Below the pieces are notes generated by a model. That model saw nothing but the letters and a program-made list of their open reading frames with translations. It was not told the DNA's origin and ran no database searches. A stretch of 64,000 nucleotides of DNA from Arthrobacter sp. B1805 (GTDB lineage Bacteria > Actinomycetota > Actinomycetes > Actinomycetales > Micrococcaceae), in NCBI RefSeq assembly GCF_002929745.1, contig NZ_PJIQ01000003.1:62001-126000 (forward strand), in the 5' to 3' direction. This document shows, one piece after another, positions 2,000 to 20,713 of the stretch (positions within the stretch are counted from its first letter, which is position 1; every line of letters begins with the position of its first letter). Both the position numbers and the translations under genes were made by a program.

Positions 2000-2821
2000 T
2001 TAGAACGGACTCCATTCCTGCAGACGGAACTCAAGCAATTCCTCCCAGGAACCTACAAGCTGTTTGGTAAGGTAGAGGTCTTTCAGGATTCCCTCCGCAT
2101 CGTCGCCGCTCACATCGCCGAGCAGTGCCCGCGTGTTCGCACAAATTTGCTCACCGGCTTGCCTTACATCGAGTGGCGGTAGGTAATCCGGCCAGCGCAT
2201 GTGATCGAGGTCGAATCGCATTCCGCAGTCCTCCCCCTCCAGGGATAGTGAAAAGTCAGCACTCACCCATGGACTCTCGGCGATCCATTCGTAGGGACAG
2301 CGTTCATGCAGGTCTTCGTGGCCAAGGTATTCGTCGTAGCCTTCCTCCACGACGCGCGCGTACTGGGGGCACTTACCGTACGCCTGCACGTACTCAACGA
2401 GCCATGAGAGCCGCTGGCCAAGGTCATCTTCCGGTCTTGAGGCGCGATATCCTGTTCCTTCGACGCCGGCAATAAGCTCATCCGGCATCAGTATTGGATC
2501 GCCCGGCACTGCGCCTGTAAGGTCCTGGAGAAGCTTGAGCTGAGTTCCGGCAACGCCGCTAAGAGGTAACAATGCCAATGCCAGCAACTCCACCGCGAGA
2601 AGCGACACTTCGCGGCTGCACCCTGCCAAGCTTTCAGCAAAATGGAACTCAAAGTCGTCACTATGCTGCCCATCCCATATCGCTTTACCGAGCTCATAAG
2701 CGGCGCTGTCTGACCAGGTTCTCGTATCCCCGTCCAAACCAGAAGATATGGCGTATGCGTCGCTCGGCAATATGAAAGATGCTAGTTCAGCAATCCGGCG
2801 AGAACAATCTTCGTCAACCAC
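2000..2821 (-). CDS. Stand-alone McrB N-terminal-like protein (273 aa), paralogue of the adjacent McrB residues 290-495
   Basis: This is the last gene of the defence operon, starting 9 bp after the mcrC-like stop. It has no catalytic motif that I recognise. Read by eye against the McrB-like protein encoded at 4072-7122, it matches residues 290-495 in order. The shared landmarks are an LAG.SR segment followed by LLA.ELL, a VPG.P segment followed by a glycine-ended E.TG, a WL...Q helix, an acidic stretch leading to WP.YL.P, an IxKDL motif and a final LxEW. It is therefore a detached sensor or interaction domain of McrB, possibly a modulator of the complex. Function is unknown. There is no signal peptide and no membrane segment. 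Confidence 0.75.
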   Translation of the reverse strand: MVDEDCSRRIAELASFILPSDAYAISSGLDGDTRTWSDSAAYELGKAIWDGQHSDDFEFHFAESLAGCSREVSLLAVELLALALLPLSGVAGTQLKLLQDLTGAVPGDPILMPDELIAGVEGTGYRASRPEDDLGQRLSWLVEYVQAYGKCPQYARVVEEGYDEYLGHEDLHERCPYEWIAESPWVSADFSLSLEGEDCGMRFDLDHMRWPDYLPPLDVRQAGEQICANTRALLGDVSGDDAEGILKDLYLTKQLVGSWEELLEFRLQEWSPF

Positions 2822-2830
2822 TGTTTCTCC

Positions 2831-4072
2831 TCACGCTGAAAGTTCTTGCCTAATCTCCAGGGCTCGCTCGGTGTGCCAAGCATCGTGGGCCGCACGAGCG
2901 AGCTCATCGACACGCTTCAGTAGCGTCTCCGGCGACTGAGAAATATCTATGGGAAACTCAACAACCGAAACGCCGGTGTTTCGCATCCTCCGTTCAAGGG
3001 GTTCACCAGGACCGGCATAAACGAGCCAGGCCCGCGATACTTCGAGAGCGGTACAGTACGCGAGCATCTGGTAGTGGTCCGCGTTGGGGTACGCGCCCGA
3101 CGGCGAAGCCGCCTTGTACTTGGCATCGAACACGAGCGCCGGCCGGCCAGCTACCGAGTGCACAATATCGACGTATATCTGCACCCGGTCGCGAGGACGT
3201 TGCGGCTCGAGCTCGTCCATAAACGCCTCGTACTGCCCCGCTGTCTCCCCCGGGAATCGATCCAAGGCCTCTCGCAACGCCGTGGTCAGGAAATCCTCGA
3301 AGACAGTAGCCATATTGACGACGAATGAAGCGACCGAATAGCGCCCCGCTCCAGCTTCTGCAGACATATTCCGCAAAATGACCTCAGAAAGACGCAGTGC
3401 TGGCACATACCGCTCGTTGATCCGAGACTCGGTCCACGACGGTAGCGGCGCTCCAAAACGCAACAGTGACACGCCATCGAGTTTCGAGTCGAGATGCGCC
3501 AGCCGCCATCGAATGGATTCCGAAAGCCTCGGGACCTGCATCATCAACCGAATAGCTGCCCTCAAGATGCGGTTCTCCGGGATGTCCGCCGTGAAGTCGT
3601 CGAATGAAACCTCAAGCGGCAACAGCATCCCCGGCCGACGTGTCATCTGATCACCAACACGTATCCGTCCACGAACGGTCCTCAACGCCTCTTCCACATG
3701 GACATACCCGCACAGAGCCCCCCGTTCCAGTGCACGTTCGCCTTGCCGAGCCACCGACTCTCCGAGCGCGGCAAACAAGTCCGTATCTTCGACTCCCTGA
3801 ACGTCATCCGGTCGGAAACCCGGACTCTTCGCGTATCCGAGCAGAAACAGCAGTCGGCTTAGCCCGACCTTCTGCTTGGGTTTCACTTCCACCAGAAGGT
3901 CTCCGACTTGCACCGCGCCCACTCTGCCGGCTGGTGTAACAAGCATGCGGTCGTTGTGAGCGGGCGCGACGGCGACAAGACCCGTCTCGCGTAACGTCGC
4001 GGCTTCCTCGGAACTAATATCGACCAAATTACCTGCGAATTGCAGCTCGTCGAGGACGATCGTGCGGATCAT
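2831..4072 (-). CDS. McrC-like nuclease subunit of a type IV restriction system
   Basis: McrC subunits bind McrB GTPase rings, stimulate GTP hydrolysis and supply the DNA nuclease. This 413-aa protein has the family's ENRIL segment at residues 166-170, and a C-terminal PD-(D/E)xK core with D302 in YVDIVH and D316-x-K318 in VFDAKYK. The start codon overlaps the stop of the McrB-like gene as TAATG, which implies coupled translation in a fixed ratio. Length fits the long McrC (LlaJI-like) family. Target specificity should come from McrB. The catalytic residues appear intact. Confidence 0.9.
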   Translation of the reverse strand: MIRTIVLDELQFAGNLVDISSEEAATLRETGLVAVAPAHNDRMLVTPAGRVGAVQVGDLLVEVKPKQKVGLSRLLFLLGYAKSPGFRPDDVQGVEDTDLFAALGESVARQGERALERGALCGYVHVEEALRTVRGRIRVGDQMTRRPGMLLPLEVSFDDFTADIPENRILRAAIRLMMQVPRLSESIRWRLAHLDSKLDGVSLLRFGAPLPSWTESRINERYVPALRLSEVILRNMSAEAGAGRYSVASFVVNMATVFEDFLTTALREALDRFPGETAGQYEAFMDELEPQRPRDRVQIYVDIVHSVAGRPALVFDAKYKAASPSGAYPNADHYQMLAYCTALEVSRAWLVYAGPGEPLERRMRNTGVSVVEFPIDISQSPETLLKRVDELARAAHDAWHTERALEIRQELSA

Positions 4073-7000
4073 TAGAATTGTGCGCCCGGTTGCCTGAAAG
4101 CTGGGTCGCCGGCCTTCTCCTGGAGGTCCTCTCCCGGCCTGCGGTCAAGCTCCGGATTCCCGCCTTCCGCTGACGGTTCGGCGGCAAACGCCAAATCTAC
4201 CGGTCCGGTTTCCGGCGCGGACTTGCGGAGCATCGCTTGCAGGCCGAATTTCTCACGAACCTTGTCCCGGTTGAGCCGCCCGTAGTACTGCTCCTCCAAC
4301 AATGGGAGAAGTTCGTACTTCCAAATCTCTTCCAGCCCTTGGTCAGTCTCGGCATGGGATTTCATGAAGTAGGACGGGCCGATCATCAGGTCCCGGTTGC
4401 CAGCTTCCAGCGATATTTCCCTGTTCAAGGCGTTGAGAAGGTCCGCTCTCAGCCGGGGCTTGCCATCGGCGTCGAGGAACCGTTCAAGCATCCCGGAAAT
4501 CATGCCCTCCTGCGGATGAAGTTCCACAAAAGCGAACCGACGGCGAATAGCTGCGTCCACCATGGCAATCGAGCGGTCCGACGTGTTCATCGTGCCAATG
4601 ATGAACAAATTCGGCGGCAGCACGAACGTCTTCTCAGGGTTGTATTGCAGGTTAATTCCCTGGTCTCGGTACTCAAGGAGAAAGTAGAGTTCACCGAAGA
4701 TCTTGGCCAGGTTGCCCCGGTTCATCTCATCGATGATTAGGAAATACGGCTTATCCCGATTCCCGTCCAGCGATGCCTCGGCGGCGATCCGGCGCAACGG
4801 ACCGGGCTCCAGACTGAATCCCACCGAATCACCGTTCGTCTGCGCCGGCCGATAACCCTCGAAGAAGTCCTCATAAGCGTACGACGGATGAAATTGCACG
4901 GTCTTGACGTGGTCACCGTGCTCTTCACCAGCGAGGTAGCGCGCGATCTTTCCGGCAAGGTAGGTCTTACCCGTTCCAGGCGGTCCATAGAACACGATCT
5001 GCTGCCGCGTCTGCAGGAGCCGAACGACCTCCTGCAGGCTCTCCAGATCGACGTGGAGTTTTGCCGCCAACTCGGTCGAGGCCGGGCGAAGTTGAGGTAC
5101 GACGGCGGGTTGCGGCTTGGCGGCAGGCTCCTCCTCAGTGCCTGGTTCAGTCGGATCTTCCTCGGAGTACCAGTCGCTGATGGCAGATAGCCCGTCGGTG
5201 AGATCGACTACGGAGCCCTGTTCCTCTAACAGACGCGGTAACGGCGCGGTCAAATCAGCGTTGCTGATCGGCGCCTTGCGCCAGGCCACGCTCCGCCGCA
5301 GCCGCGACGTCTCGTCATCGACATATTCCGCTGCGCCGGTCACTACACCCAAATGAAGCCTGTTCTCAAACTGGGTGAGGACGAAATCGTCCACCTTCAT
5401 CTGGCTGAGGAAGCGGTAGTACTCGTGCGCGCGAGCTTTGCGTTCGGAGTAGTCGATGTGTTGGTATCCCGTGTTTACGGCGGCTTGGATCTCATCGAAG
5501 CTGGCGCCGGGCGCTGGCGATCCTAGGTGCTGAGCGCGGGTCGACACGAAGCCGTTCGTCAGCCAAGTGTCGAGCATCGCTACCCCTGCCTGACTCTGCC
5601 GCACCAGCCATGCCCGCTGTCCTACATCCTCGCCGGGCGTCTGCCATTCGCTGAGATAGGGCTCAAGGTACCACTCCACGTAGTCACTAGAATCGCCTCG
5701 CTGCGCTTGTTGTATGGCGTGAAGGTCCTTCGCGATATCCGTCTCTGACCCGCCACTTGGTCCGCCAATGATTGGAGCGAAGGCGTTGCGAATACGGATA
5801 CGGTGATCCTTCTTCACGACGGGTTGGAGGTATCCGGGCCATGCGAGGTACTCGATGCTGTAGCGGATTGTGGGCCAATCGCTCTCCACGGACTGGGTCA
5901 TCCTGATGAAAGTCCATGGATCGGCGAGGGCGGCCTCAATGAGGCTCATGGGCTGAGCAACGACGTGTTGAATGAAACGCGTGAGCCAAGCGATGTGGTC
6001 AGCGACCTGAATGTTGAAGCCGACGCCACCGTTGAACGAGCCTGTCGCTTCAAGCCCATCTTCGAGCTCAGGGGTGAGCTTCACCGGCTCACCAGGCACC
6101 CACGAGAGAACCTTCTCGATGCGGGCGATCTTGGTCGCAGGGGTGACGTTGGCCAGTGGCACCACCTGCAGATAGAGGAGCTCAGCGGCCAGGAGCACGG
6201 TGGCACGGCTAGCACCCGCCAGCTGGCGCTCAAGCTTCGCCATGAAGCTTCCCGGACCGACGTCTGTCCGGGCACTGCGGCTGCCTAGATCCGCGGCGGC
6301 CTCTGCGGTCCACGTGGTGGTGCTGTTGTCCAGCGCGGAAGGTTCACCCCGTAGTCCCGCGCCTAGGATCAGCCAAGCCGCTGTCTCAACCTCAGGAGCC
6401 TTGCTACTACCTCGCAGTAGATCCCTTTCCGTGCCCTGCGCTTTCACTTTATCTCCCCGCCATTCCCGAAAAGCCTTCGCTTCGTCGGCGTCCCAAGTGG
6501 AGTCAGGATCGACGTTGAGAACCGTCCACATAAGACCTTGGGCGTCCAGACGGCTCCGAAGTTGGATCCCGTAGTCTGGCGCTAGATGCAGCAATTGATC
6601 CATGCTTTGAAGGAAGACGGCGTAACGCTCCGAGGGTGGCCCATTGATACCGCGGTCCGCCCAGCCGACGAGTTTGAGGAAGTCCTTCGCAGTTTGGGGT
6701 TTGTAGGGCGGACACATGAGCGGATCCCGAGCGAGAAGTAGAACGGAAGCAAACATGGTTATCGCGCCGTAATGGATACGTTCTTCGTCCGCGGATCGCA
6801 ATCGATCTCCGAAGGTGCTCATCGCTCCAGGATCGGGTTCGCCAATCCATAGCACCTCAATGGCTGACCGCAGGAGGTCCGGTTTAGTCCGTGCCATAGC
6901 GGTCAGACGCATCTTGAACCACTGATCGATCAGATTAGAAGATCCGACGTCTTTCACCAGGGCTTGTGGCCACCCAGCCTCATCTGCGAGGAACAGCTGT

Positions 7001-7122
7001 CTCGTCCTGCTGAGACGTTCGGCCAGCGCGAGCTTGTAGAAGTACTCTTCGTTGTCCAAGTCGACGGATCGAGCGAAGCGGCTTGCATACGACATGAACT
7101 GTGTCCACGCTTCGCTACTCAT
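4072..7122 (-). CDS. McrB-like AAA+ GTPase with N-terminal sensor region and EVE-like reader domain
   Basis: This is the motor and recognition subunit of a type IV (McrBC) system, 1016 aa. The AAA+ domain is C-terminal: Walker A GPPGTGKT at residues 713-720, Walker B IIDEMNRGN around 796-804, and the McrB signature MNTSDRS at 845-851 followed by RRRFAF. Residues about 503-620 start AWLVRQ and end near LGVVTGAAEY, a pattern typical of EVE/PUA-like domains that read modified bases. Residues 290-495 are duplicated as the separate gene at 2000-2821. The start codon overlaps the methyltransferase stop (ATGA). It probably restricts modified or foreign DNA with the McrC-like partner. The ligand of the reader domain cannot be deduced from sequence. 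Confidence 0.9.
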   Translation of the reverse strand: MSSEAWTQFMSYASRFARSVDLDNEEYFYKLALAERLSRTRQLFLADEAGWPQALVKDVGSSNLIDQWFKMRLTAMARTKPDLLRSAIEVLWIGEPDPGAMSTFGDRLRSADEERIHYGAITMFASVLLLARDPLMCPPYKPQTAKDFLKLVGWADRGINGPPSERYAVFLQSMDQLLHLAPDYGIQLRSRLDAQGLMWTVLNVDPDSTWDADEAKAFREWRGDKVKAQGTERDLLRGSSKAPEVETAAWLILGAGLRGEPSALDNSTTTWTAEAAADLGSRSARTDVGPGSFMAKLERQLAGASRATVLLAAELLYLQVVPLANVTPATKIARIEKVLSWVPGEPVKLTPELEDGLEATGSFNGGVGFNIQVADHIAWLTRFIQHVVAQPMSLIEAALADPWTFIRMTQSVESDWPTIRYSIEYLAWPGYLQPVVKKDHRIRIRNAFAPIIGGPSGGSETDIAKDLHAIQQAQRGDSSDYVEWYLEPYLSEWQTPGEDVGQRAWLVRQSQAGVAMLDTWLTNGFVSTRAQHLGSPAPGASFDEIQAAVNTGYQHIDYSERKARAHEYYRFLSQMKVDDFVLTQFENRLHLGVVTGAAEYVDDETSRLRRSVAWRKAPISNADLTAPLPRLLEEQGSVVDLTDGLSAISDWYSEEDPTEPGTEEEPAAKPQPAVVPQLRPASTELAAKLHVDLESLQEVVRLLQTRQQIVFYGPPGTGKTYLAGKIARYLAGEEHGDHVKTVQFHPSYAYEDFFEGYRPAQTNGDSVGFSLEPGPLRRIAAEASLDGNRDKPYFLIIDEMNRGNLAKIFGELYFLLEYRDQGINLQYNPEKTFVLPPNLFIIGTMNTSDRSIAMVDAAIRRRFAFVELHPQEGMISGMLERFLDADGKPRLRADLLNALNREISLEAGNRDLMIGPSYFMKSHAETDQGLEEIWKYELLPLLEEQYYGRLNRDKVREKFGLQAMLRKSAPETGPVDLAFAAEPSAEGGNPELDRRPGEDLQEKAGDPAFRQPGAQF

Positions 7123-9674
7123 ACGATCACCTCCCGAGCAGGATGTCGCGGACCTTGTCCCGGTGGGGGGTTCAGTGTGGAAGTGTAGGGAACATCGGTG
7201 TCGAGGGCTAGCTGCATGGCGTCGTATGCCTCGAGGATCAGCCGCTTGGTTCGATATTCGCCGTATGCAGCTTCGTCCTTGCGCTTCACGATCGGGAATG
7301 TATCCATGATGTAGTCGACGTCGGAACGAGAAAGCTTGTAGAGGTGGAACATGTGTGCGTCCAACTCGACTCTCAACGCCGCCCGTCTATCACTATCCCA
7401 CCGGAACGGCTCCCCTTCGTCGCCGCAATCGGTTGCGAAATCGCTCATATCATCGGCTGTCCAAATGAGTTCCAGCACATAGTCGCGCGGATCGAGGAAG
7501 CTGTCCGCAAAGGCCTCCGGTCGGGGCACGGCGAGCTGGTTCAGGATGTATGCGCTTACGTTTGTTCCTCCTAACTTCTGGCGCATCACGTAATCAGCTA
7601 CAAACGAATTTAGAATGGCCACTAGGGACAACAGGTCAGACATGTCAGATCGCGTGAACATACACGTCATACTGTTGGCTGCGCCGCTTATGGGTAACAC
7701 AAGAGGGATCAAGGTACGTTCATCACTAGCTCTCGCGATTTTACGAAGAGCTAGAACCCAATCCCGAGTCCAGCCCCTCCTCGTCAATGCTTCACGAGCG
7801 AAGTCAGCCGCAACCCAGTACCGCGGCGTTGCAAATGATCCTCTATCCAGTGGGTCCGGTTTGTTTCCTTTTACTGATTGCCACCGATGGTTATAGGCAT
7901 GCGCCATCTTCGATTCGTAAAGTGGCACGGTCATGTCACCAGGTTGGTCCAGGAATTTCGCGCTGTCGTTAGCCATATGTATCACTTCGCCAAATGAGAC
8001 ACCCCATGGATTCCCCCCAAACCGATCAGTCTCGTCCACCAGGACCGGGACCCGACGGTAGATGCTCAGAGTGATCTCCGCGTCCCGGCGCGTTCGGAAG
8101 ATTGGGAGCGTACCCGTGTTCGGGTTGATCAGTTTGATCTCGTCAGGACTGAGTGCGAACTTCGTGCCATCAATGTGTGCCGGGTCGTGAAGGAAGAAGG
8201 CAAAAGAGGCCACTTCAGACTTCGAGAACCGGCCGGCCATCGTGAGCAGAGAGAATTTGAAGCTGCGGTGAACGCCTTCGAAGATTGGAGCGGCGTTCTC
8301 GAAGTCGTAGAGCGCCGCGATAGTGCTGCTTTCCACCAGGTCCTTGAAGAAGTACTGCGTCGTGGCGTCCGTAGCGATGCCGGTTGGCACGATGATGCCC
8401 GATCTACCGTGAGGACCTGTCAGGTTTCGAAATAGCTCCGCAAACACCGCATAGGTGTTCACATCGCCACGACCGTTGAACGGGTACCGGCCGGATAAGC
8501 GCATGCTGACACTTTGCCCTTCAGCATTGCGCTTGGCTGCGAGAAATTCTCGATGCAGAATCGGATCGTTTTCGGCAAGCTGTTTGATCAGGCGGGTACG
8601 CGCCGCCGCGTTCGGAGCTTTCGCGACTGCTTCGTTCCGGGCTGCGAAGAATTCCTGTTCCTGAAGCTTCACCCGTTCCCAGGGCGGGTTGCCCAGCACG
8701 CAGGAAAATCCGCCCGGCCAGCCCTCGGCCCCGTTTTCTCCAGCGTCGGGATCGCCAAACACTTCGGGAAATTCGAGGTGCCAGTGGAAGAAGCGGTACT
8801 CCCGGGTCAGGTTTCGGATTTTCGTTACCGTCTCCGCGAAGCCCGCTGATTCGCCCGAGTCACCGAGCTGCCTCACTACCGATGAGGTTGGCGGTTCCGG
8901 TTCACCTGCCCTCAGCGGCCAGACGAATGCAGCGCACCAGGCGTCGGCATGGAGGCGTTTCTGTTCCATCTCGTTGGAGTGGTCAAACGCCTCGTACGCC
9001 TTGGCGCGTGAGCGTGCATCCTCAACGCTTGCCACGGGCTGAACGAGTTTTTGGCGACGGTCAATCAGCTGCGCGACGCTGGCCGTGGGCGCACCAAAGC
9101 TGAACGCTTCCTGTCCCCGTCGCTCCACTTTGTTCCGCTTCTTGACCTCTGCGGAAACCTTTTTGTCATCGCCCTCAATGACGCCGAAGGCTTCGTCGGG
9201 TACGCCATTCGACAACAGTGCCGGCGTGGTTCCGAGCAGGCTATTGCCGATCTTGATTCGGGCATCAAGGAACCCGAGCGGTTTGCCTGGTTCCATAGCT
9301 TCAAGCCATAGCGAGACCTTCGCCAGTTCTGCTGCCAGGTCATTCATATCGACACCGTAGATGCAACGCTCGACCACGTCGTGAAGAGCATGCTGAATCT
9401 GCGCTGGAGTAGGCTCGTCCTCTCCGGCCCTCACTTCAGCGAGACGTCGGGCGATGCGGCGGGCTGCCGCCACCAGGAAACCTCCGGATCCAGAGGCAGG
9501 GTCGCATACCGTAAGTGCCAACAAACGTGCTTCACGATCCGCGGCGTCGACTCCACCGTCGACAGCCTCATTCAGCAGCGGGTCTAGGGTTGTATCGAGC
9601 AGGGCAGACACAAGCCGCGGTGGGGTGTAGTAGGAGCCTGTGGTTTTGCGCTCATTTCCGGACAGTCGGACCAA
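7119..9674 (-). CDS. Eco57I-type N6-adenine DNA methyltransferase, C-terminal catalytic part (downstream of an in-frame amber stop)
   Basis: This part carries the catalytic core of an N6-adenine methyltransferase: SAM motif I DPASGSGGF at residues 58-66 and catalytic motif NPPW at 329-332, with the family's HWHLEFPEVF lead-in at about 297-306. The frame is identical to that of the upstream 433-aa ORF. Only a single TAG at 9743-9741 separates them, and the codons between the TAG and this start still encode GSVYESLLELIP, the expected family sequence. The first usable start inside the frame is a TTG at 9674 with no obvious ribosome binding site. Whole-length homologues are about 1300 aa and resemble the DISARM methylase DrmMI. 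It may be expressed poorly or only by readthrough. Confidence 0.8.
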   Translation of the reverse strand: MVRLSGNERKTTGSYYTPPRLVSALLDTTLDPLLNEAVDGGVDAADREARLLALTVCDPASGSGGFLVAAARRIARRLAEVRAGEDEPTPAQIQHALHDVVERCIYGVDMNDLAAELAKVSLWLEAMEPGKPLGFLDARIKIGNSLLGTTPALLSNGVPDEAFGVIEGDDKKVSAEVKKRNKVERRGQEAFSFGAPTASVAQLIDRRQKLVQPVASVEDARSRAKAYEAFDHSNEMEQKRLHADAWCAAFVWPLRAGEPEPPTSSVVRQLGDSGESAGFAETVTKIRNLTREYRFFHWHLEFPEVFGDPDAGENGAEGWPGGFSCVLGNPPWERVKLQEQEFFAARNEAVAKAPNAAARTRLIKQLAENDPILHREFLAAKRNAEGQSVSMRLSGRYPFNGRGDVNTYAVFAELFRNLTGPHGRSGIIVPTGIATDATTQYFFKDLVESSTIAALYDFENAAPIFEGVHRSFKFSLLTMAGRFSKSEVASFAFFLHDPAHIDGTKFALSPDEIKLINPNTGTLPIFRTRRDAEITLSIYRRVPVLVDETDRFGGNPWGVSFGEVIHMANDSAKFLDQPGDMTVPLYESKMAHAYNHRWQSVKGNKPDPLDRGSFATPRYWVAADFAREALTRRGWTRDWVLALRKIARASDERTLIPLVLPISGAANSMTCMFTRSDMSDLLSLVAILNSFVADYVMRQKLGGTNVSAYILNQLAVPRPEAFADSFLDPRDYVLELIWTADDMSDFATDCGDEGEPFRWDSDRRAALRVELDAHMFHLYKLSRSDVDYIMDTFPIVKRKDEAAYGEYRTKRLILEAYDAMQLALDTDVPYTSTLNPPPGQGPRHPAREVIV

Positions 9675-9740
9675 CTCGAATGTCCGGCTTTCAGTGTCAA
9701 TGCGCGGAATAAGTTCAAGCAGCGATTCGTAGACCGAGCC

Positions 9741-11042
9741 CTATTCCTCGGCACCCAAATGGTGGTAGTCGACAGGTTGGAGCCTCTCGGTTCTCCCGAC
9801 CACCCAGCTCAGTTTGCGTATGGCCGCAAGGTAGTCCCGGTTTGCCAGTTCCGCGCCGAGCAGCAGATCCGGATTCGGCTGTTGTTCAAGCTGGACCGCA
9901 CGGCTGTCCGGGTCAAATAGCCCGCCCAATGCGGGCAGTCCGACAGCATCCAGTCCGTTCCCGCCAAGTGCATTGAAGACGATCTTCTGCGTCCGCCATA
10001 GGTCAGGGTGCGGGCCGCCGTCTCGGTTGCGCACCATCTTGCGAAGTCGTTGGGTGGAAAAGTAGGTCGCGTATCGCTCCTGGGCAGCCGTGGATGCGTC
10101 CGGCGAAAGCAGCGCTCCCCGGTCTTCCACGACGAAACAGAACAAGAGTCGATACGCGGTGCGCAGTAGCGCTTTGTGGAACTCTCGCGGGCTCAGCTCT
10201 CCACTGTGCAGCGCGTCCATCAACCAGCCGTTATCTGGATGACGGAGGAAACCAGTACCCAGGTGCATGAGGGCCTTCTCGACCCCGAGTCCGAGTTTGT
10301 CGAGTGCCCGGGCGCCTGCGTCAATGGACTCGCTGCGCCAGGATTCGAGCCAGCAGTCAGCCGGCGGAGCATCCGGCCCTCCGCGCTTAGCCAGACGGGA
10401 CTGGTGCGCGAGTTGCCAAAGAATCTGGAATTCGGGGTAGAGGTCTGAGTCGAAGATGGTTTCAAGGTCGAATTCGATGTACGCAGATCCGGCGAGCGCT
10501 GTGGAGTCGCGCAGCAGGCGCAGTTTGAGGCCGTTGCTCAATATCGCCCAGAGGTGCTCCTCTTCCCTATTGAGGAACTCCTGCACCATCGCTTGGGGCG
10601 CGCGGGAGGCTCCCTCGACCCCGGGGTTGCGGCGGTCCAGGTCCACACCCGGGCCTAACAGGTGAATGGGTACGGCTTCCCATCGATGAGAGATGGGGTA
10701 TGCCGCGTCATCGACGTGGAAGCCGCCGCTGGTCGTCGGGACCTGCCCATAGCCGAACTCCCGAAGCATGACCAGCAGCCACTTCTGCCGGGCATCACCG
10801 GTACCAGGACCTTTGGCATCGGGGCGCTTTCTAGCATCGAGTTCACGCCATGCCTGCCACGCGGATTTCAGGTACATCCAGGAGCGGGAGGCAGCGTCGC
10901 GTACCGTCTCCGTTCCGATGAGGTGATACGTAGTGGGCTGGAGGCTCTTGGGATCGCTCACTTGGCCGGATTGGATCCGCCCCAGAAGGGACGGCGGTAC
11001 AACTCCGCCAACGACGGTGATCGCCTGAAATGCTGTACTCAC
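9741..11042 (-). CDS. N-terminal part of the split Eco57I-type methyltransferase (433 aa, ends at premature TAG)
   Basis: This 433-aa product has no methylase motif of its own, but it ends HHLGAEE immediately before a TAG and is followed in the same frame by GSVYESLLEL. In the large methylase family of DISARM-like loci these two segments are continuous, usually with leucine at the stop position. The N-terminal region includes an EEEHLWAILSNG segment typical of the helical, partly nuclease-like leader of these enzymes. Its GTG start overlaps the stop of the SNF2 gene by one base (TAGTG). The ORF is best seen as the first third of a 1307-codon gene with one nonsense change, or as a sequencing error at 9741-9743. 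Confidence 0.75.
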   Translation of the reverse strand: MSTAFQAITVVGGVVPPSLLGRIQSGQVSDPKSLQPTTYHLIGTETVRDAASRSWMYLKSAWQAWRELDARKRPDAKGPGTGDARQKWLLVMLREFGYGQVPTTSGGFHVDDAAYPISHRWEAVPIHLLGPGVDLDRRNPGVEGASRAPQAMVQEFLNREEEHLWAILSNGLKLRLLRDSTALAGSAYIEFDLETIFDSDLYPEFQILWQLAHQSRLAKRGGPDAPPADCWLESWRSESIDAGARALDKLGLGVEKALMHLGTGFLRHPDNGWLMDALHSGELSPREFHKALLRTAYRLLFCFVVEDRGALLSPDASTAAQERYATYFSTQRLRKMVRNRDGGPHPDLWRTQKIVFNALGGNGLDAVGLPALGGLFDPDSRAVQLEQQPNPDLLLGAELANRDYLAAIRKLSWVVGRTERLQPVDYHHLGAEE

Positions 11043-13900
11043 TACGCCGCTCCCATCGGATTGTAAATATAGACGCCGAGAATGTCGGCAGGCAGGTTCG
11101 GCTCTACCGCAAGTCCCCGAATGCCTAGCTGTCCCGCACGGTCCCCGCGGGCCGAAATTCGGACTTCACGGTGCGCATCGCGTATCTCTTCTGCCACCGT
11201 TATTGCCTTCTCGTTCAGGGCATCTTGGAGCAGGGGAATCGCCTTCAGGATGCTGTCCATCTTCTCAGTGACATCGCCGACGTTGCCGGCGGGCTTCGCC
11301 GCGAGTAGAGCCTCTACCCCTGCTTCGTCCAACCACATGGGATTCATCGGGCTCCCTTGAAACGCGAGGACCCGTGCTTCCTCTGCCATATCGGTCCGAT
11401 CTCCCAGCCGGGCAGGGAGAACCAGCTTGGTGCGGAAGCGGACTAGGAGTGCCACAGTGAGAGCGTCGACGTCGTTGGTTTGAATGAAACCACAGCGGCG
11501 AGCAGGGCGTTCTTTACCGTCGAGCTGATCGTCAAGGGCGGAGTTGAGCACATATTGGGCTGCTGCCGTGACCATCGGGTCGGTTCGGACGAAGACAGAT
11601 GTGTTGTGCGGCGCCGGAAAGTCCCGGACGAACTGCACGGATGTGCGGCCGCCCAGAGCGTTACGCATGCCAGGTGCCGCAGTGGCAAGCTCTGCAACGA
11701 GTCCGGCCGGCGTGGGCTGTGTGTGGGCTCCGGTTTCTTCCAGAGCTGCACGAATGAACTTCTCGACATCCGCCGGATCGCCAAGACTGCGCCGAGCGGC
11801 GTCGACGACCTTCTGCACTTCATCAGGCCGCACGGCATTCTGGGCAAAGCGTGACCGGCTGGCCCGTTCCTGTTCTGCGCTGCTACGCCACTCGGTTTCC
11901 AGCTGCTCGGCCTCCGTCGTGAGAGTAAACAGTTCCATCTGGTCGCCTTGCTTACCCCGCATCAGGATGCCCTCAAGCAAAGCAGCGAGAACCTGATCAC
12001 TCTTCGGCGGTACAGGCACGCTGATACCCAGGTCCCTCCGGATACTCTCGTGCTTTCGCAGCAGAACGTCGAGAACAATTCCATCAATGCCGTTGTCATC
12101 GCCGTAGATGGTCACGGCACGGACAGTGTCTGAGGTCTGACCGAAGCGGTCTACCCGGCCTTCTCGTTGTTCGTGGCGAGTTGGGTTCCACGCCAGGTCA
12201 TAGTGGACGACTGCCTGGAATCCGTCCTGGAGATTGACACCCTCCGAAAGACAGTCGGTCGCCACGAGCACCTTGGGCATGTTCCCGGCCTGCTCGGCCT
12301 GGTTCGCCACCCGTGCAGCGCGCTCCTCTGCGGGCAGTTCGCCGGTCACGACCTCGACCAAGAACTTGTTTCGGCTGGCCGAACGTAGGAAGTCAGCCAC
12401 ATAGTGTGCCGTGGGAATGAACCGGCAGAAGATGATCGGTTGAAATCCTTCTGCGATCAGTTTCTGCACCCGTTTCTGCAGCAACTGCAGTTTTGCGTCG
12501 GTCGCCGGTACAGCTACGAGCTCAGAAGCGGTTTTCCAGAACGAGTTTAGACGGCGCTTGACTGTCTCTGACTCCTCAATCGCTTCCAGGCGGGAGCCGG
12601 GGACGACGTCGATAGCTTCGCCGCCGTCGTCTTCCACCTGATCCATCACAACGGCCATGCCGCGTTTCTCGGCTGCAGCATCCGTTTCCGCTTCCTCGGT
12701 AGCGGCACGGGTTTTGAGTGTTGCTGCTGCAGCAGCAGGGGAGGAGGCCATGGCACGCAACAAAGAGAGAGCTGACCACCAGCGTATGCGTTGATCCAGC
12801 TTTGTTCCCGTGGTGTCTTGAACACGACCGCGCACGTATTCGAGAACTGCATCGAAGAACGCCCGGTGCTCCGGGGACAGCTTGTAGGGCAGCTCTATCG
12901 TCTCGCGGTCATTCGGAAACTTGGTGTCCGACTGGAGATAGCTGCGGATATCGACGCGCCGACGCTGCACCATGTGGTCGGCCAGCTTGCGACGTCCAGA
13001 CTCGTGGGAAAGGTCAGCGGTCTTGAGGCTTGGATCGAGCAACCCGATGAGGTTGCGGAAGGCGGCATCATTACCGCTATGAGGGGTCGCTGTGACGAGA
13101 ATGAGGTGTCGGCTTTTGTCGTCGGCCAGTCCTCTCACCAGCTCGTACCGCTGGGTTCTGCCGGAGCTGCCCTTGCCGGTGTCATCAGCGGTTACTCCAT
13201 GGGCCTCATCAACGATGACGAGATCGGGAGCAGTACGCAGGAAGTCGTGCCGCTTCGACTCGGACTTGATGAAGTCGGTCGAGACTATGGTGTGCTTGAA
13301 GTGCTCGAAGATTGAGCTGTCGTAGCCCGCCGCTCTCTGAAGCTTTCTCGCCGTGCCCGGCAGTACCAGCTGCGCTTCGATGCCGAACTTTGCGGACAGC
13401 TCCTGCCGCCATTGCTCCGCCAAGCTGGGCGGGCAAAGAACCGTCAGCCCTTTGGCATCGCCTTGGGCAAGAAGCTCAGCGGCAACCAACCCAGCTTCTA
13501 CCGTCTTGCCGATGCCGACGTCGTCAGCAATCAGAAGCCGTACCGTCTCCTGGCGGAGCGCCAGGAGTAGGGGCACCAGCTGGTAGGGGCGAGGGGAGAC
13601 ATTCAGCCCGGCAAGGGAGCGGAATGGGCCGCCGCTTGAGCGGAACCCTATCCTGAGGGCGTCCCGCAGGAGACGGGCGCTACGGTCATCGCCCAGGTCT
13701 GTGGGAGAAGGTAGTCCGAATGACGCGGACCGCACTTCCTCGATTGCGGGGATGACACCTGCGATGTCTTCATCGGTGCCACCGATGGGTCTAAGGACGA
13801 GGAACTCTTGATCGCTTCCGGGCAGAACCACCCATTCCCGTCCACGGGCAGAAACCAAAGAACCGACGGCGAAAGTAGTTTCCGCTGCAGTAATACTCAC
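11042..13900 (-). CDS. DrmD-like SNF2-family helicase/translocase
   Basis: This 952-aa SF2 ATPase shows an SNF2-type P-loop DDVGIGKT at residues 126-133, a DEAH box at 231-234, and a C-terminal helicase half with SEGVNLQ followed by a QREGRVDRFGQ motif VI. The N-terminal REWVVLP...LRPIGG segment and the RPYQLVPLL lead-in to motif I are characteristic of DrmD, the SNF2 subunit of class 1 DISARM. The GTG start overlaps the stop of the upstream DUF1998 helicase as GTGA. Probable role: translocation on incoming DNA as part of the composite system. It has no nuclease motif of its own. Confidence 0.85.
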   Translation of the reverse strand: MSITAAETTFAVGSLVSARGREWVVLPGSDQEFLVLRPIGGTDEDIAGVIPAIEEVRSASFGLPSPTDLGDDRSARLLRDALRIGFRSSGGPFRSLAGLNVSPRPYQLVPLLLALRQETVRLLIADDVGIGKTVEAGLVAAELLAQGDAKGLTVLCPPSLAEQWRQELSAKFGIEAQLVLPGTARKLQRAAGYDSSIFEHFKHTIVSTDFIKSESKRHDFLRTAPDLVIVDEAHGVTADDTGKGSSGRTQRYELVRGLADDKSRHLILVTATPHSGNDAAFRNLIGLLDPSLKTADLSHESGRRKLADHMVQRRRVDIRSYLQSDTKFPNDRETIELPYKLSPEHRAFFDAVLEYVRGRVQDTTGTKLDQRIRWWSALSLLRAMASSPAAAAATLKTRAATEEAETDAAAEKRGMAVVMDQVEDDGGEAIDVVPGSRLEAIEESETVKRRLNSFWKTASELVAVPATDAKLQLLQKRVQKLIAEGFQPIIFCRFIPTAHYVADFLRSASRNKFLVEVVTGELPAEERAARVANQAEQAGNMPKVLVATDCLSEGVNLQDGFQAVVHYDLAWNPTRHEQREGRVDRFGQTSDTVRAVTIYGDDNGIDGIVLDVLLRKHESIRRDLGISVPVPPKSDQVLAALLEGILMRGKQGDQMELFTLTTEAEQLETEWRSSAEQERASRSRFAQNAVRPDEVQKVVDAARRSLGDPADVEKFIRAALEETGAHTQPTPAGLVAELATAAPGMRNALGGRTSVQFVRDFPAPHNTSVFVRTDPMVTAAAQYVLNSALDDQLDGKERPARRCGFIQTNDVDALTVALLVRFRTKLVLPARLGDRTDMAEEARVLAFQGSPMNPMWLDEAGVEALLAAKPAGNVGDVTEKMDSILKAIPLLQDALNEKAITVAEEIRDAHREVRISARGDRAGQLGIRGLAVEPNLPADILGVYIYNPMGAA

Positions 13901-16900
13901 GTGGATACTCCAAATACGTTCGGGTGGCGGGAGATGAAACCGTCGAGGTCATCAGTGGAGGTTGCGGTGATCACGTTCCAACTGCTGAACGTGAGCGCCA
14001 GAGCATCGATAGAGGGCCTCGACTCGTCCTCCACAATTACAGCGGTTGGCAGTGACACTTTGCTCGTGAAGGTGAAGTCCACGACGTTCCCGGCTATGGT
14101 CGGGCCGACGTCGTCGGGAAGGTTATAGCCGCCGTCCGTCAGCCGCCTCAGAAAGTCCTCTGCCCGCGGGCTGACGGGTTGCTTGCCGCTCATGGGGTCT
14201 GGTTGCGCTGCTTTGGGTTCAGACATCGGTTTCGTCGTTGCTTGCGCTATCTGCTGGAGCAAGTCGATCACCAGCCGCCGGTCGATGGCTTCATGGGAAC
14301 GCTGATTACCGTACGACAGTAGGCAGCGGTAACAGCCGCGAACACACGAGGTGTCATCGTCTTCTCCGTTGGCAGGGTTTACGTGAATGATTTCGAGCGC
14401 TTTGGCGGCCACCTTGGCTATGGCGTCAGGCTCGCTTTGCAGGCGCCGCAGAACGCCGGCTCCACCTTCGGCGGCCTCTACGAACAGAAGACGGCCACGG
14501 TCATCTGCGTCATTCAGGCGTTCGCTTGCCAGCTCTGAGTCCTCGAGCTGGAAGACCGCCTCGATCCCCCGCTCAATGGCGTACTGCATAGTGGTCGCCG
14601 CTTCATCAGTGACTTCCTTTGCCCACCTAAAGATCGCGATGTTGCGCCTGTCCTCCACGAACGGAGTAATCATCTGCTTCTTTTTTGACTGCTCCACCGT
14701 GGTGTCATCAACGTCGCCACCGTCTCCGGACTCTTCGGTTGCGCGTTTCTCGGAGAGCCATTCACCGGTGATCAGATCCAGCCAGAAACCGTGCTTGTCC
14801 TGATCCGCGCGGTTGCGCCGGCCCAGGTTAGTTACCCGGACGGTGGCTCCGTCACCGTAACGGACTTCGCCGAGGAGGTCCCCGTCGTTGTAGATGCCTG
14901 CGTCCACACGCCCCGGCTTCTTGCCGTGAGGGGCGAAACGGTAGGTGGTGACAAGCTCAAAGCCCTGCCGGTTTCGCTCTTCCTCGTCAGCGCTGATCCG
15001 TTCCCGTCGGCGGGTTATCACCGATTGGAGCTGCATCAGGTTCGACCAACTGCCGCCCAGCGGCTTGTCGCAGGACTCGCAGACGTCGATACCCGGCTTT
15101 CGCTCGTGCAGATAGCCGCAAGCTTCACACACACGGGCCTCGGTTAACACGACATCCCCCGCTCCGCCTCCATCCGAGTCGCGGGGAAGGCTGACGCGTT
15201 TCACTTGATATCGGGCGCCCTCGTGGTAGATGAGGGCATCCGGGCCGAACTCGCTGATCGCGAGAAAGCGCGAGCGCTGCAGCCAGGTGCTGTTGTTATC
15301 TCGTCCCTTGCGGATTCCCGGGATAAAGGCCGCCAGCGGCAAGCGGGGGAAGGAGTAGCCAGGCAGAAAGCCTTCTGACGCCAGATAACGCAACGTATAG
15401 AAGTCAGATTGACCGCGGGAATCACTGTCATTCAGCAATATTTCAAGCCGCTGGCTAGCCTCACGGTGGCGGTTGTTGGCTTCCTCCCGCTGCTTGGAGG
15501 TGACCGAGTGATCCTGGCTCGCTCTGTGTGCCGCATCCTGCTCGGCCAGCGCGTTGCGGTAGAGCAGCCGCCATCGATCGCACGCTTCGTTGAGCGCGCT
15601 GAAAGCATCGTCGATGACATGGTCCGCCCAGTCCGCGCTCCACCAGACCGTGTCGGCGAGCTCGTGCTGGATTGCGGAGAGCAGGGATTTTGCCGATCCC
15701 TTTGCGCGCGCTGCCGCGCTCGGGTCTTCGAGGAAAGACCGGATCTGCGGCTGGATGGGGTAGGTCTTGTCCTCCAGTTTGAGAAGCCCGGCCAGCGACT
15801 TCCCGAGGCCGTGGCTTGTGGCCGATAGTGCTTCGGCCAACCAGACAGCATGAACGTGGGACCGGATCAGGTCCTCGTTCGCGAAGTCGAGGCGGGGTGG
15901 CTGAACCTGGCCCGCCACCATGAGATCAGAACGCTCGAAGTAGTAGCTGTCGTGCGCGCTTCCCGTGGCGCAGTACGTAATGACTAGCGCGGGCTGCCCC
16001 GAGCGACCTGCACGGCCGCTTCGCTGTGCATAATTTGCCGGCGTCGGCGGCACATTGCGCATTGCGACGGCATTAAGGCTCGCAATGTCGACGCCCAGTT
16101 CCATGGTGGGCGAACAGAAAAGCAACGGCAGTTCTGCTCGTCGGAACGCTTGCTCCCGCTTCTCACGATCTTCTGACCGGACCTGTGCGGTATGTTCGGC
16201 AGCCTTCAGACCGGCAAGCTGGCTCCCTGTCTCCAAGTAAAGGTCCTTGAAGAACTTGATGACACGTGGCTTCTGGTCAGCGTGGTAGCTGCGGCGCAGA
16301 AGATCGGGCGCACCGTACTCCCCTGCGCCTTTCTCCAGGACCATCGTGGACAACTTGAGCCGGTAACCCGAAAGTTTGCCTTCGACAACTTCGGCTATGA
16401 GGCCTGTCTTGTGCAAGATCTCGAACAGGGACGCGATGACCTCATTGGTCTCGGCCATCGAAAGCTTTCCAGCCGACGACGCTGTTCGAGCAAGCCACCG
16501 CCCAAAGGTGCCATGGGCTGTGACGGGAAGGATGTTGCGGAAGGACGCGCTCTTCTTAGGTTCTGTCGATACGAGCCCCACATTTGGATCCGGTTCCCGC
16601 TCTGGAAGGGCCCAGATGCCGGAAAGATACTCTCGGCTACGGTTCTTTACCTTGTTCAACCAATCGACGGTGAGTTCTTCGGCGTCGATGGCCAGCACCC
16701 GGCGGAACTCGTCCAGCAGCACCGTGATGATCTCTTCGCGTTTGCCTGCGTCCATCACGCGGAGAACGTAGTGGGCAGACTCCCAGCGCGCATCCTGCTC
16801 GGCCAGTCGTCGCGCGTTCGGATATTGAACTTTCAATAGGCCGGTCTGTTCCAAGTTCGGAAGGGTGATTCGCCATCCACGCTGAAGATCCCGAAGAGCA

Positions 16901-19071
16901 CGGTAAGTAACGACGTCGTGGAGCGCACGTCTCGTCGGTCGAGCGTCGAGTGGGTCTTCGATCTGGGCGTAGTCTCCCCACTCCAAGTTGAGCGTATTGA
17001 CGATCGCTGTTCCGAGATCCGCTGCTTCGAGGCCCTCTTCTCCTGCCGCAGCGACGGCCTGATAGACGGCGGCACGCAGTTGCGCAACCTGAACGAAGTC
17101 GTTGAGGTGGCCGGCCTGCAGAGACGCGTCCTGGCGGTTGTCTACGAAAGTCAGGAGTTTCTTGGCTTCTGGGGCGAGATCCTGACCTATGTCGGATTTC
17201 AGTAACTGCACGAGCCTCGTGGCAATAACGGTCATGGCACTGCTACGGCCCTCCTGATCCAGAGTGACCAATTTGGAGAACTCTCCGCTGCGTGCGGATT
17301 CGTAGGTCACCTGACAGTTCAAGCAAAATCCGAGGCTGCGCGGTATCCATGCAGCGAGCTGCCCGTCTGAACTTGTGGCTGCGTTGTCCATGGCCGCTTC
17401 ACCGCTCAATCCCACACTGTAACGCTGTGGCAGACGCTTGCGCTTCGACTCGATGACTGGATGACCTGTCTCGGCGTTTGTAAGCCAAGACGCTGGTAGG
17501 CGACCAGACTCAACCGCCTGGTCGGGCCATTCCTGTCTTGTGGAGATGAAGAGGTAACCATCGATCCCACGGTCCTCCCCGCCGTCGTCCTGCAGTTTCA
17601 ACTCATGGCGGGCAATGAAACGGGACCCTTCAGCCGTCTCCACCAGGCGGGCCATGAGGTATTCCTGGCCACACTCCCGGCAAAAGGCTAGAGGGTATAA
17701 CCGCTTCTCCTGCTCGCCCGTCGTGAGCTGAAAGTCCGTTTCGATCAGACGGGTAGCTTCCGGTTCGAGCGTTGTGTAGACGGAACCGCCCTTTGAGATG
17801 AACTGATGAAGGCGGAAGGCGAAAAGTGGGCGCCCTGCTTGCGACTTAGCCTTCGAGCCTGCCAGAAGAGTGGCACGGATTGCCGTTGCACAAGCTTTTG
17901 GGTCTTGGCCGGTTTTCGCCGCCAATACTTCGGCGGCTCCAGTGATTGTTTTGGGGGCGCTGCGAATAAGCCGACTGGACTCAGCTTCTGTGGTCAGACC
18001 GAAGGTATCCTCGATCCACGACGCGAGGGAATCGGAGCGGAGGGAGACATAACCGCCGCTGATGGTCGCGCTGCTGAACTCTGCATCACCACGCTCCAAC
18101 ACCGCAGCTTTGAGATCCTCGGTTGTCTGATCTCTTACCGTGGTGGCTCGGACAAGCGATTCCGTCACGACGTGGTCGGGCTTCACCTCGGTGCCGAAGA
18201 TTCGTGTGGCTACCTCGGCGATGTCTCGCTGCTGCTCTGCCATAGTTCCGCCGGAAGACATGGTGGCGGATGTTCCAACGCATTGGAGTGTCTCCTGAGC
18301 GTGACATGCGTCCCGAAGACGGCGGACGAGTAGAGCAACGTCCGCGCCCTGTCGGCCCCGGTAGGTGTGCAGTTCATCCAGAACAAGGAAGTTCAGTCCG
18401 GACGCTGCCCTGATGAGCGACTGCCGTTCCTCAGGACGCGTGAGGACGTATTCGAGCATTACGTAGTTGGTCAGGATGACATCCGGGGGATTCTTGAGGA
18501 TCGACTCGCGCTCCTCGCCTTTTTCCTGGCCCGTGTACCGCTTAAAGGTTACCGGCGATTCCCCGCCGAATCCGTACTCCAAAAACTTAGTGAGTTCTTC
18601 CATTTGGCTATTGGCGAGCGCGTTCATGGGGTAGACGATGATGGCCTTGATGCCTTTGCCGCTGCCCTCGCGGAGCACGCGGTCGACGATGGGGACTATG
18701 TAGGAAAGCGACTTCCCCGATCCTGTACCGGTCGTCAGGACGTAGGAGTGCCGACCGGCCGCTATGGAGACGGCATCCGCCTGATGTTTATGGAGAGTGA
18801 ATGAGCCGCTCCCCCGGTCCTTCATGTCCTTCTTCGACCGGAAGATTTCCCGGCACTGCTCGTGCAGTATGCCGCGATCAACTAGCTCATCGACGCTCCC
18901 ACCACTCTGGAACGAAGGGTTGAGAGAAAGCCAAGGGTCGGGCCATTGGCGTCCTTGGTCCGCAAGTTCGCTGACAGTCTTCCGAATCCGATCGTCCTGT
19001 ATGTCGACGAACCCCTCGGTGAATGACCTGTAGCCGTCGATCAGTTCATTCCGAATTCCAAACGCATCCAT
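13897..19071 (-). CDS. Large DEAD/DEAH-box helicase with C-terminal DUF1998 (DrmA/DrmB- or MrfA-like)
   Basis: This is a 1724-aa helicase. Motif I TTGTGSGKS lies at residues 113-121, DELH at 232-235, SAT at 268-270, and motif VI QRSGRAGRSGQ in the second RecA half. The C-terminal half holds several paired-cysteine knuckles (CRECG, CLNC, CEACG, CESCD) and the DUF1998 signature EGGAGVL followed by CVRGCYRCLLSYGNQ. A further short domain of about 90 residues follows. In DISARM the helicase DrmA and the DUF1998 protein DrmB are separate genes, whereas here both activities are on one chain. It is the first gene of the operon. The ATG start is preceded by GTAGGGGG at suitable spacing. Confidence 0.87.
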   Translation of the reverse strand: MDAFGIRNELIDGYRSFTEGFVDIQDDRIRKTVSELADQGRQWPDPWLSLNPSFQSGGSVDELVDRGILHEQCREIFRSKKDMKDRGSGSFTLHKHQADAVSIAAGRHSYVLTTGTGSGKSLSYIVPIVDRVLREGSGKGIKAIIVYPMNALANSQMEELTKFLEYGFGGESPVTFKRYTGQEKGEERESILKNPPDVILTNYVMLEYVLTRPEERQSLIRAASGLNFLVLDELHTYRGRQGADVALLVRRLRDACHAQETLQCVGTSATMSSGGTMAEQQRDIAEVATRIFGTEVKPDHVVTESLVRATTVRDQTTEDLKAAVLERGDAEFSSATISGGYVSLRSDSLASWIEDTFGLTTEAESSRLIRSAPKTITGAAEVLAAKTGQDPKACATAIRATLLAGSKAKSQAGRPLFAFRLHQFISKGGSVYTTLEPEATRLIETDFQLTTGEQEKRLYPLAFCRECGQEYLMARLVETAEGSRFIARHELKLQDDGGEDRGIDGYLFISTRQEWPDQAVESGRLPASWLTNAETGHPVIESKRKRLPQRYSVGLSGEAAMDNAATSSDGQLAAWIPRSLGFCLNCQVTYESARSGEFSKLVTLDQEGRSSAMTVIATRLVQLLKSDIGQDLAPEAKKLLTFVDNRQDASLQAGHLNDFVQVAQLRAAVYQAVAAAGEEGLEAADLGTAIVNTLNLEWGDYAQIEDPLDARPTRRALHDVVTYRALRDLQRGWRITLPNLEQTGLLKVQYPNARRLAEQDARWESAHYVLRVMDAGKREEIITVLLDEFRRVLAIDAEELTVDWLNKVKNRSREYLSGIWALPEREPDPNVGLVSTEPKKSASFRNILPVTAHGTFGRWLARTASSAGKLSMAETNEVIASLFEILHKTGLIAEVVEGKLSGYRLKLSTMVLEKGAGEYGAPDLLRRSYHADQKPRVIKFFKDLYLETGSQLAGLKAAEHTAQVRSEDREKREQAFRRAELPLLFCSPTMELGVDIASLNAVAMRNVPPTPANYAQRSGRAGRSGQPALVITYCATGSAHDSYYFERSDLMVAGQVQPPRLDFANEDLIRSHVHAVWLAEALSATSHGLGKSLAGLLKLEDKTYPIQPQIRSFLEDPSAAARAKGSAKSLLSAIQHELADTVWWSADWADHVIDDAFSALNEACDRWRLLYRNALAEQDAAHRASQDHSVTSKQREEANNRHREASQRLEILLNDSDSRGQSDFYTLRYLASEGFLPGYSFPRLPLAAFIPGIRKGRDNNSTWLQRSRFLAISEFGPDALIYHEGARYQVKRVSLPRDSDGGGAGDVVLTEARVCEACGYLHERKPGIDVCESCDKPLGGSWSNLMQLQSVITRRRERISADEEERNRQGFELVTTYRFAPHGKKPGRVDAGIYNDGDLLGEVRYGDGATVRVTNLGRRNRADQDKHGFWLDLITGEWLSEKRATEESGDGGDVDDTTVEQSKKKQMITPFVEDRRNIAIFRWAKEVTDEAATTMQYAIERGIEAVFQLEDSELASERLNDADDRGRLLFVEAAEGGAGVLRRLQSEPDAIAKVAAKALEIIHVNPANGEDDDTSCVRGCYRCLLSYGNQRSHEAIDRRLVIDLLQQIAQATTKPMSEPKAAQPDPMSGKQPVSPRAEDFLRRLTDGGYNLPDDVGPTIAGNVVDFTFTSKVSLPTAVIVEDESRPSIDALALTFSSWNVITATSTDDLDGFISRHPNVFGVST

Positions 19072-19787: not shown

Positions 19788-20650
19788 ATGACACTTACGG
19801 CGCTGCCACTAAAGCAGATCCGAAAAGATCGGCCGACATCGCTCGCTGCAGCTTCCAGTGATGGCGATGGGGCCTCTCCCCCGAGTGCTGAATGTAGTCG
19901 ACCTCACCTAAGCGTGCGGATTTCAGTCCGGCCACTCCTCGGTTGGACGAGTGAAGAGCAGCACTTGGGACCCACGCGACTTGTGATTCAGATAGCCCTG
20001 CCCCGTAGGGCTGGTGATCGACGTCGGATTCTGCGATCCTCAGCGAAAGAGGTCAGGGTCAACCGCATAATCTCTGTGCATCGTTGCCGCAGAGTAATTC
20101 TGCTGGTCCTTATTGAGGGTGACGAAGAGGCGTCGGTCGACGTCGCCGTGCGCCAAGCAAGCCTTCTCGGTGCTGCACGTCTTTGCCTGCTTCGAGGGAT
20201 TCATACCGCAACACAGTAAGAACTTCCCCCACCTTCATCGCGTGTGACAGCAACGGGATACGTTGCATTCCCACACCGAAATCCTTCCCTGCATGCGCGG
20301 ATGACTCTGACGGGGCAGGCGTCGTTGCCTGCGTAGAGGAGGTCAAGTTGGGAGAGGTCGTAGTTGCCTCGCTCCCATTCGACTTGGCTGAGGTCGACGT
20401 CGTCGGACACATCAAAGAGATGGAAAGGCACCAAGAGGTTGGTGTCGAGGGCATCCCCAAGTCACAGTTCGCTCGCCCTACGACCTCGAAGACCTGGTTG
20501 GCGACGTTCACGCAGTCGTCCCGCTCAGGTGTTCCCGACAGACCGAGTAGCTGCTGCGGTGTGAGGTGGTCGATCAGGCTTCGGTAGGTAGGCGCAATGG
20601 CGTGTGGAACTCGTCGATATCGACGAAGTTGAAAACGATAACTGCGGAAC
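19788..20650 (-). pseudogene. Decayed DEAD/DEAH helicase with DUF3427 C-terminus
   Basis: Pieces of one protein are spread over different minus-strand frames in the right order. A DEFHHAIAP-like DEAH region and YRSLIDHLTPQQLLGLSGTPERDD (helicase motif III context) lie at about 20500-20640. VPFHLFDVSDDVDLSQVEW and NYDLSQLDLLYAGNDA lie at about 20330-20430. VLLFTRP lies near 19945, and GPIAITWKLQRAMSADLFG, followed by a stop, at about 19795-19860. These match DUF3427-type helicases, which start with a PLD-like nuclease domain. Several frameshifts and stops break it, and the N-terminal half is gone, cut off by the divergent AddAB-like genes. Confidence 0.7.
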
Positions 20651-20713
20651 AAGGTCTCTATAGAACTGTTAGAGGGTCCTGCTATGTTGAGAATACAGAG
20701 ATCAAGGGGCAGC

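Follow-up and report, generated by a model that had tools for sequence, protein, structure and literature searches.

A 64,000-nucleotide stretch of the draft genome of Arthrobacter sp. B1805 (NZ_PJIQ01000003.1, positions 62,001 to 126,000; hereafter the window) carries on its minus strand, at positions 2000-19071, an operon of seven open reading frames (ORFs) that very probably form a defence system of ARMADA type I, partnered downstream by McrBC and with its methylation arm interrupted. The order of transcription is a 1724-residue helicase, a 952-residue SNF2 protein, the 433- and 851-residue parts of a methyltransferase, McrB, McrC and a 273-residue ORF. The most likely interpretation is an ordinary ARMADA I-McrBC system in which the methylation arm has recently been broken or is made as two polypeptides.

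ARMADA was named in the preprint of Bell et al. 2025 (PMC12458937), the accessible text of which describes type I as usually ordered YprA, BrxHII-like, PglX-like and attributes to it a fused DUF1998 and a Vsr nuclease at the C terminus. In the window, a YprA-like helicase with a fused OB-CON-DUF1998 region, a BrxHII/RapA-like helicase and a PglX-like gene are found in this order. An earlier annotation made from the sequence alone (the original prediction) had given ARMADA as a name for DISARM-related loci of this kind, and this is supported by the genes present, their order and their domains when compared with that text.

The original prediction described six tightly coupled genes. All four of the start/stop overlaps that it quoted (GTGA, TAGTG, ATGA and TAATG) are present in the sequence, and the coupling stands at these four junctions, whereas the count does not: there are seven ORFs, two of which are the halves of one methyltransferase, no overlap joins these halves, and the TAG that interrupts them had gone unmentioned. 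The methyltransferase and McrB genes overlap, and the gene for the 273-residue protein starts 9 nucleotides past mcrC, preceded by AGGAGAAACAGTG. A pattern scan revealed no promoter-like site ahead of the first gene and gave fewer sites than its shuffles; the promoter and terminator scans were at or below shuffle level. The G+C content of the operon is 0.57-0.62, compared with 0.66-0.72 at 32-64 kb (2-kb steps), which is compatible with an island; the closest named relatives at the locus are Arthrobacter.

Domains were assigned by a Pfam search, complete to E 0.001, of the seven proteins of the operon plus an ORF upstream of it, and by a PADLOC profile search (version 2.0.0) of eight proteins. 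The first gene (13897-19071, minus strand, as are all operon genes) encodes a YprA/DruE-type SF2 helicase (ArmC-like) that consists of a helicase core, a fused DUF1998/MZB region and a C-terminal domain. Pfam places DEAD/Helicase_C and MZB in one chain and PF09369 at residues 1496-1584, in agreement with the single-chain helicase-DUF1998 fusion first proposed, and the C-terminal domain possibly has a Vsr-like nuclease fold. The closest PADLOC profile is DruE (5.9e-109). According to the accessible text of PMC13192584, DruE is a helicase-nuclease that engages intermediates containing single-stranded DNA, and the YprA arm can reasonably be modelled on it.

The second gene (11042-13900) encodes a SNF2/RapA-like (BrxHII/DrmD/DpdE-like) helicase, ArmA-like, and here too the earlier description, DrmD-like, is matched by PADLOC, NCBIfam and PDB. 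The PADLOC profiles PDLC02853 and DrmD score 1.1e-280 and 3.1e-91, the NCBIfam model DISARM_DrmD scores 3.1e-99, under that model's cut-off, and RapA is the best PDB match. PDLC02853 is labelled DpdE, yet the next DpdE profile reaches 1.2e-39 on the same protein; PDLC02853 may have been built from ARMADA-type proteins. A Dpd system was considered on account of this label and was rejected, as the DpdJ score of the large helicase (8.1e-24) is far below that of DruE.

The SNF2 protein was used as the query in a survey of relatives, which covered a class sample of 394 genomes (E 1e-150) and 38 genomes of the genus (E 1e-100) and gave matches in 30 (window's own included) and 2 genomes, respectively. 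Two sets of loci were fetched, one of 31 (L039-L069, comprising 30 class-sample loci, window's own excluded, and that of a same-genus genome, G410) and one of 80 named loci; the sets share members (L040/L074, L045/L088 and L047/L147) and hence are not independent. Homologues of the operon genes had been expected to co-occur in other genomes, and the three-gene core is indeed present in order in 30 of the 31 and 70 of the 80 loci. L068 has no YprA match, and the ten named loci not counted as core are mostly those in which the contig ends inside or just past the operon.

The methyltransferase (ArmB-like) is PglX/DrmMI-like. Its N-terminal part (9741-11042, 433 residues) ends at an in-frame TAG (9741-9743), and the catalytic and target-recognition part (7119-9674, 851 residues) follows from a TTG 22 codons on; the frame of the first runs on past the TAG into the second with no frameshift. 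The Eco57I-type assignment of the original prediction holds (Pfam Eco57I 1.6e-17). The PADLOC profile DrmMI matches the C part at 4.5e-56, and the N-terminal portion of this profile aligns with the N part at 5.5e-07. The stop separates the N-terminal region from the catalytic domain, such that the S-adenosylmethionine (SAM) motif, DPASGSGGFL, and NPPW both lie downstream in the C part; from these motifs we take the enzyme to be of the adenine-N6 type.

In the relatives compared, a sense codon stands in place of the TAG, which no other locus examined has. The halves lie in a single open frame in 29 of the 30 and 69 of the 70 core loci, and the stop junction is open in at least 99 of the 100 three-gene core loci. 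The two exceptions were scored broken for other reasons: in G410 (L058) the junction is read through and the frame is broken further on by an N run, and in L093 there are two methyltransferase copies, each in a long ORF, with the best matches falling in both. The pairwise ratio of nonsynonymous to synonymous substitution (dN/dS) against G410 is 0.057 upstream of the stop and 0.039 over the next 89 codons, compared with 0.045-0.080 in the other genes; residues 80-470 of the C part, a stretch that contains a divergent patch, give 0.116. There is thus no sign of long decay, and the stop must be of recent origin, tolerated or an error. Most likely the methylation arm has recently been lost or, through weak re-initiation, is produced in two pieces; the other genes are open.

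That the TAG arose through an error in base calling or assembly, which would leave the methyltransferase intact and the locus a wholly ordinary ARMADA I-McrBC operon, is the strongest of the alternatives, though we do not favour it. The genome is a draft of 79 contigs, and both the low dN/dS around the stop and its absence from every other locus examined speak for an error; however, every other frame in the operon is open and draft assemblies rarely contain isolated substitution errors. Somewhat less probable is a genuine two-polypeptide methyltransferase, in which the N part ends at the TAG and the catalytic and target-recognition part is made by re-initiation 22 codons on. The position of the stop, past the N-terminal region but ahead of the SAM motif, the open 851-residue frame with its TTG start and the natural split of the same protein at another domain border in L076 and L077 are in keeping with such an arrangement. 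It is difficult to reconcile, however, with the lack of a Shine-Dalgarno-like sequence ahead of the TTG (judged by eye), with the loss of the conserved stretch GSVYESLLEL that it would entail and with the finding that none of the 31 fetched loci or the 70 named core loci is split here (L093 by its two long ORFs).

The tests in the accessible text of PMC12458937 are of type II only; there, deletion of armB abolishes protection and a change in the SAM motif has only a partial effect, which suggests that the window's copy may be a weakened system. An interrupted self-marking gene in an otherwise open restriction operon provides a natural case for distinguishing a role of the methyltransferase in self-protection from one as a sensor.

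The complete McrB/McrC pair of the original prediction is recognisable by Pfam, NCBIfam and structure matches. McrB (4072-7122, 1016 residues) has a helical N-terminal region (1-480), a central domain (about 503-650) and an AAA+ GTPase (690-965) with the NxxD motif (MNTSDR); McrC (2831-4072, 413 residues) matches PF10117 at 2.3e-54 and has a PD-(D/E)xK-like D...DAK motif. An NxxD McrB GTPase together with McrC is in keeping with type IV McrBC restriction. The central domain has no Pfam or PDB sequence match and the structural matches of McrB cover the AAA+ domain only; an EVE-like reader of modified bases is a conceivable reading of residues 503-650, but one that the sequence searches do not support.

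The last ORF (2000-2821) encodes a stand-alone McrB N-terminal helical module, which aligns by BLASTP with McrB residues 293-472 (25% identity, E 3e-16). Among the 38 genomes of the genus, the stand-alone form was found only in the window genome and G410; the G410 module is 68% identical to that of the window, and further partial copies lie close by. The McrB N-terminal module varies among L081-L083, L109, L124, L096 and L079, while the central domain and AAA+ remain alignable.

The classical target of McrBC is modified cytosine. A search for PF00145 C5-methyltransferases, positive in 10 of 14 control genomes, found none in the host genome, which leaves the McrBC arm without an obvious self-target of that kind. 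The original prediction held that the two arms must discriminate between marks, but this is not required: the methyltransferase carries SAM and NPPW motifs, no PF00145 enzyme was found in the genome, and the arms need not conflict since they probably read different chemistries.

McrC (PF10117) is present in 66 of the 394 class genomes, being found in 25 of the 30 SNF2 carriers (window's own included) and in 41 of the 364 others (Fisher p 3.7e-17, from genomes that are not phylogenetically independent). The nearest McrC lies downstream on the same strand at 6.3-10.8 kb in 17 of 31 SNF2 loci and at 19-27 kb in 5; in the remaining 9 it is absent from the contig or megabases distant, and G105 and G268, with McrC near the end of another contig, were not counted as linked. 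In 15 of the 30 and 18 of the 70 core loci, both McrB and McrC are encoded downstream, on the strand of the core. No McrBC occurs within the fetched stretch in 10 and 34 (L092, in which the McrB match is not downstream on the same strand, was scored among these), McrBC could not be scored in 3 and 13, and McrB is found without McrC before the stretch ends in 2 and 5. In a tree of 71 SNF2 rows, with five McrB-only loci scored as positive for McrBC, this label shows clustering, yet needs 10-12 changes. The window SNF2 groups with two Arthrobacter loci and Homoserinimonas, and belongs to a supported 7-row clade in which all 6 scored rows (window among them) carry McrBC.

The number of changes on this tree, together with the absence of McrBC from the fetched stretch at many Streptomyces loci, could mean that McrBC is a passenger of the defence island and not part of one system. 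We consider this unlikely, as the nearest McrC within 35 kb is always downstream on the same strand (22/22 loci) and the gap between the methyltransferase and McrB matches is at most 101 nucleotides in 10 of the 15 and 12 of the 18 loci, the window showing an overlap. The composite had at first appeared unusual. The pairing is, however, already in print: the introduction of PMC12458937 describes a YprA-containing DISARM-like cassette as frequently associated with canonical McrBC operons, and the accessible text of an earlier paper from the same group (Bell et al. 2024, PMC11090510) shows a branch with this association in its McrB tree; the survey of relatives agrees. In the literature search, ARMADA, McrBC and DISARM were found together only in PMC12458937 and no title reported a test of the type I-McrBC pair; the counts given here add quantitative support to a pairing mentioned in print.

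The target-recognition domain of the methyltransferase (7322-8040) differs wholesale from that of G410. The operon DNA of the two genomes is 84-88% identical (80% at 8040-9469), and 7322-8040 is unalignable; at the protein level, the identity of the C part falls from 0.90-0.98 to 0.27-0.58 at residues 530-779, with a second dip (0.52-0.55) at residues 330-429. In the comparison with Arthrobacter globiformis, identity is 50% for the C part and 79% for the SNF2 protein. A domain profile, built from an alignment containing four of the solo ORFs, detected solo target-recognition ORFs in 4 of 111 loci, all beginning at a common domain border. L072 (16842-17702) and L079 (18285-19133) each have one solo ORF adjoining a full-length methyltransferase, while L076 (11084-11839 and 11815-12636) and L077 (10253-10954 and 11769-12545) have two beside a domain-less methyltransferase core of 1041 or 1051 residues. 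A 411-residue ORF of L097 that matches the profile was not counted since it overlaps a full-length gene, nor were short extra matches in L130 and L138.

Two species of one genus thus have wholly different versions of the domain in an otherwise conserved operon, a spare solo gene sits beside the full-length enzyme in two relatives and two solo genes supply a domain-less core in two others. We tentatively suggest that the ARMADA PglX-type enzyme could be a modular writer, its target-recognition domain a swappable specificity cassette. With an McrBC arm blind to adenine marks, the operon could in this way change its self-mark repeatedly, and this strain would have tolerated loss or splitting of the writer. 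The solo genes would offer a handle on how such systems alter specificity. Neither TRD nor recognition domain occurs in the accessible main text of PMC12458937.

The gene content, order, coupling, domain make-up, recurrence, interruption and target-recognition difference are observations, from which the following working steps are inferred. The PglX-like enzyme would normally write an adenine mark at sites set by its exchangeable target-recognition domain, and the SNF2 and YprA helicases would load on unmarked or replicating phage DNA, which the putative C-terminal nuclease of YprA, or a partner, would destroy. McrBC would cover phages with modified cytosine that evade the first arm.

Adjoining the operon on the plus strand (20684-26865) is a divergent AddAB-like pair, a PD-(D/E)XK AddB-like gene followed by a UvrD-PD-(D/E)XK AddA-like gene. 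The UvrD-like protein (23581-26865) matches GajB profiles and was considered as a type II armD; it is divergent, has a PD-(D/E)XK domain and follows the AddB-like gene, and was therefore assigned to the AddAB-like pair. Between the operon and this pair, an ORF on the minus strand (20110-21036) contains a helicase-fragment-like stretch, GLSGTPERDD (judged by eye), and is possibly the remnant of a decayed gene.

It is very improbable that the genes are DISARM or Druantia variants and not ARMADA: the PADLOC labels are DruE for the helicase and DpdE/DrmD for the SNF2 protein, but version 2.0.0 dates from 2023 and predates the ARMADA name, DUF1998 is fused, no PLD domain was found among the operon proteins, DruH is not among the PADLOC matches listed and the order is that of ARMADA type I. 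DISARM class 1 has homologues of the SNF2 helicase and of the PglX/DrmMI-like methyltransferase, and was rejected because of the fusion of helicase and DUF1998 (drmA and drmB are not separate here) and the lack of a PLD (DrmC) nuclease, which is absent from the Pfam results for the operon proteins and the upstream ORF and from the PADLOC matches listed; the window differs further in having McrBC. Druantia, with DruE as the closest PADLOC profile of the large helicase, was rejected as no DruH partner is among the PADLOC matches listed for the eight proteins, the other large operon proteins being assigned elsewhere by Pfam; unlike Druantia, the operon has methyltransferase and SNF2 genes. In BREX, the target-recognition domain is likewise the most variable part of the methyltransferase BrxX/PglX (accessible text of PMC11842806), but beyond the BrxHII-like helicase homology no further BREX core gene was recognised in the operon. 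By gene content, the pair resembles canonical McrBC of the DISARM-associated branch in its NxxD AAA+ McrB, PF10117 McrC and adjoining YprA cassette, and differs in the extra long helical N-terminal region of McrB. The operon is most like ARMADA type I, with which it shares the YprA to BrxHII/RapA-like to PglX-like order, the fused DUF1998 and possibly the Vsr-like C-terminal fold, and from which it differs in the interrupted methyltransferase frame and the stand-alone McrB-module gene at its end.

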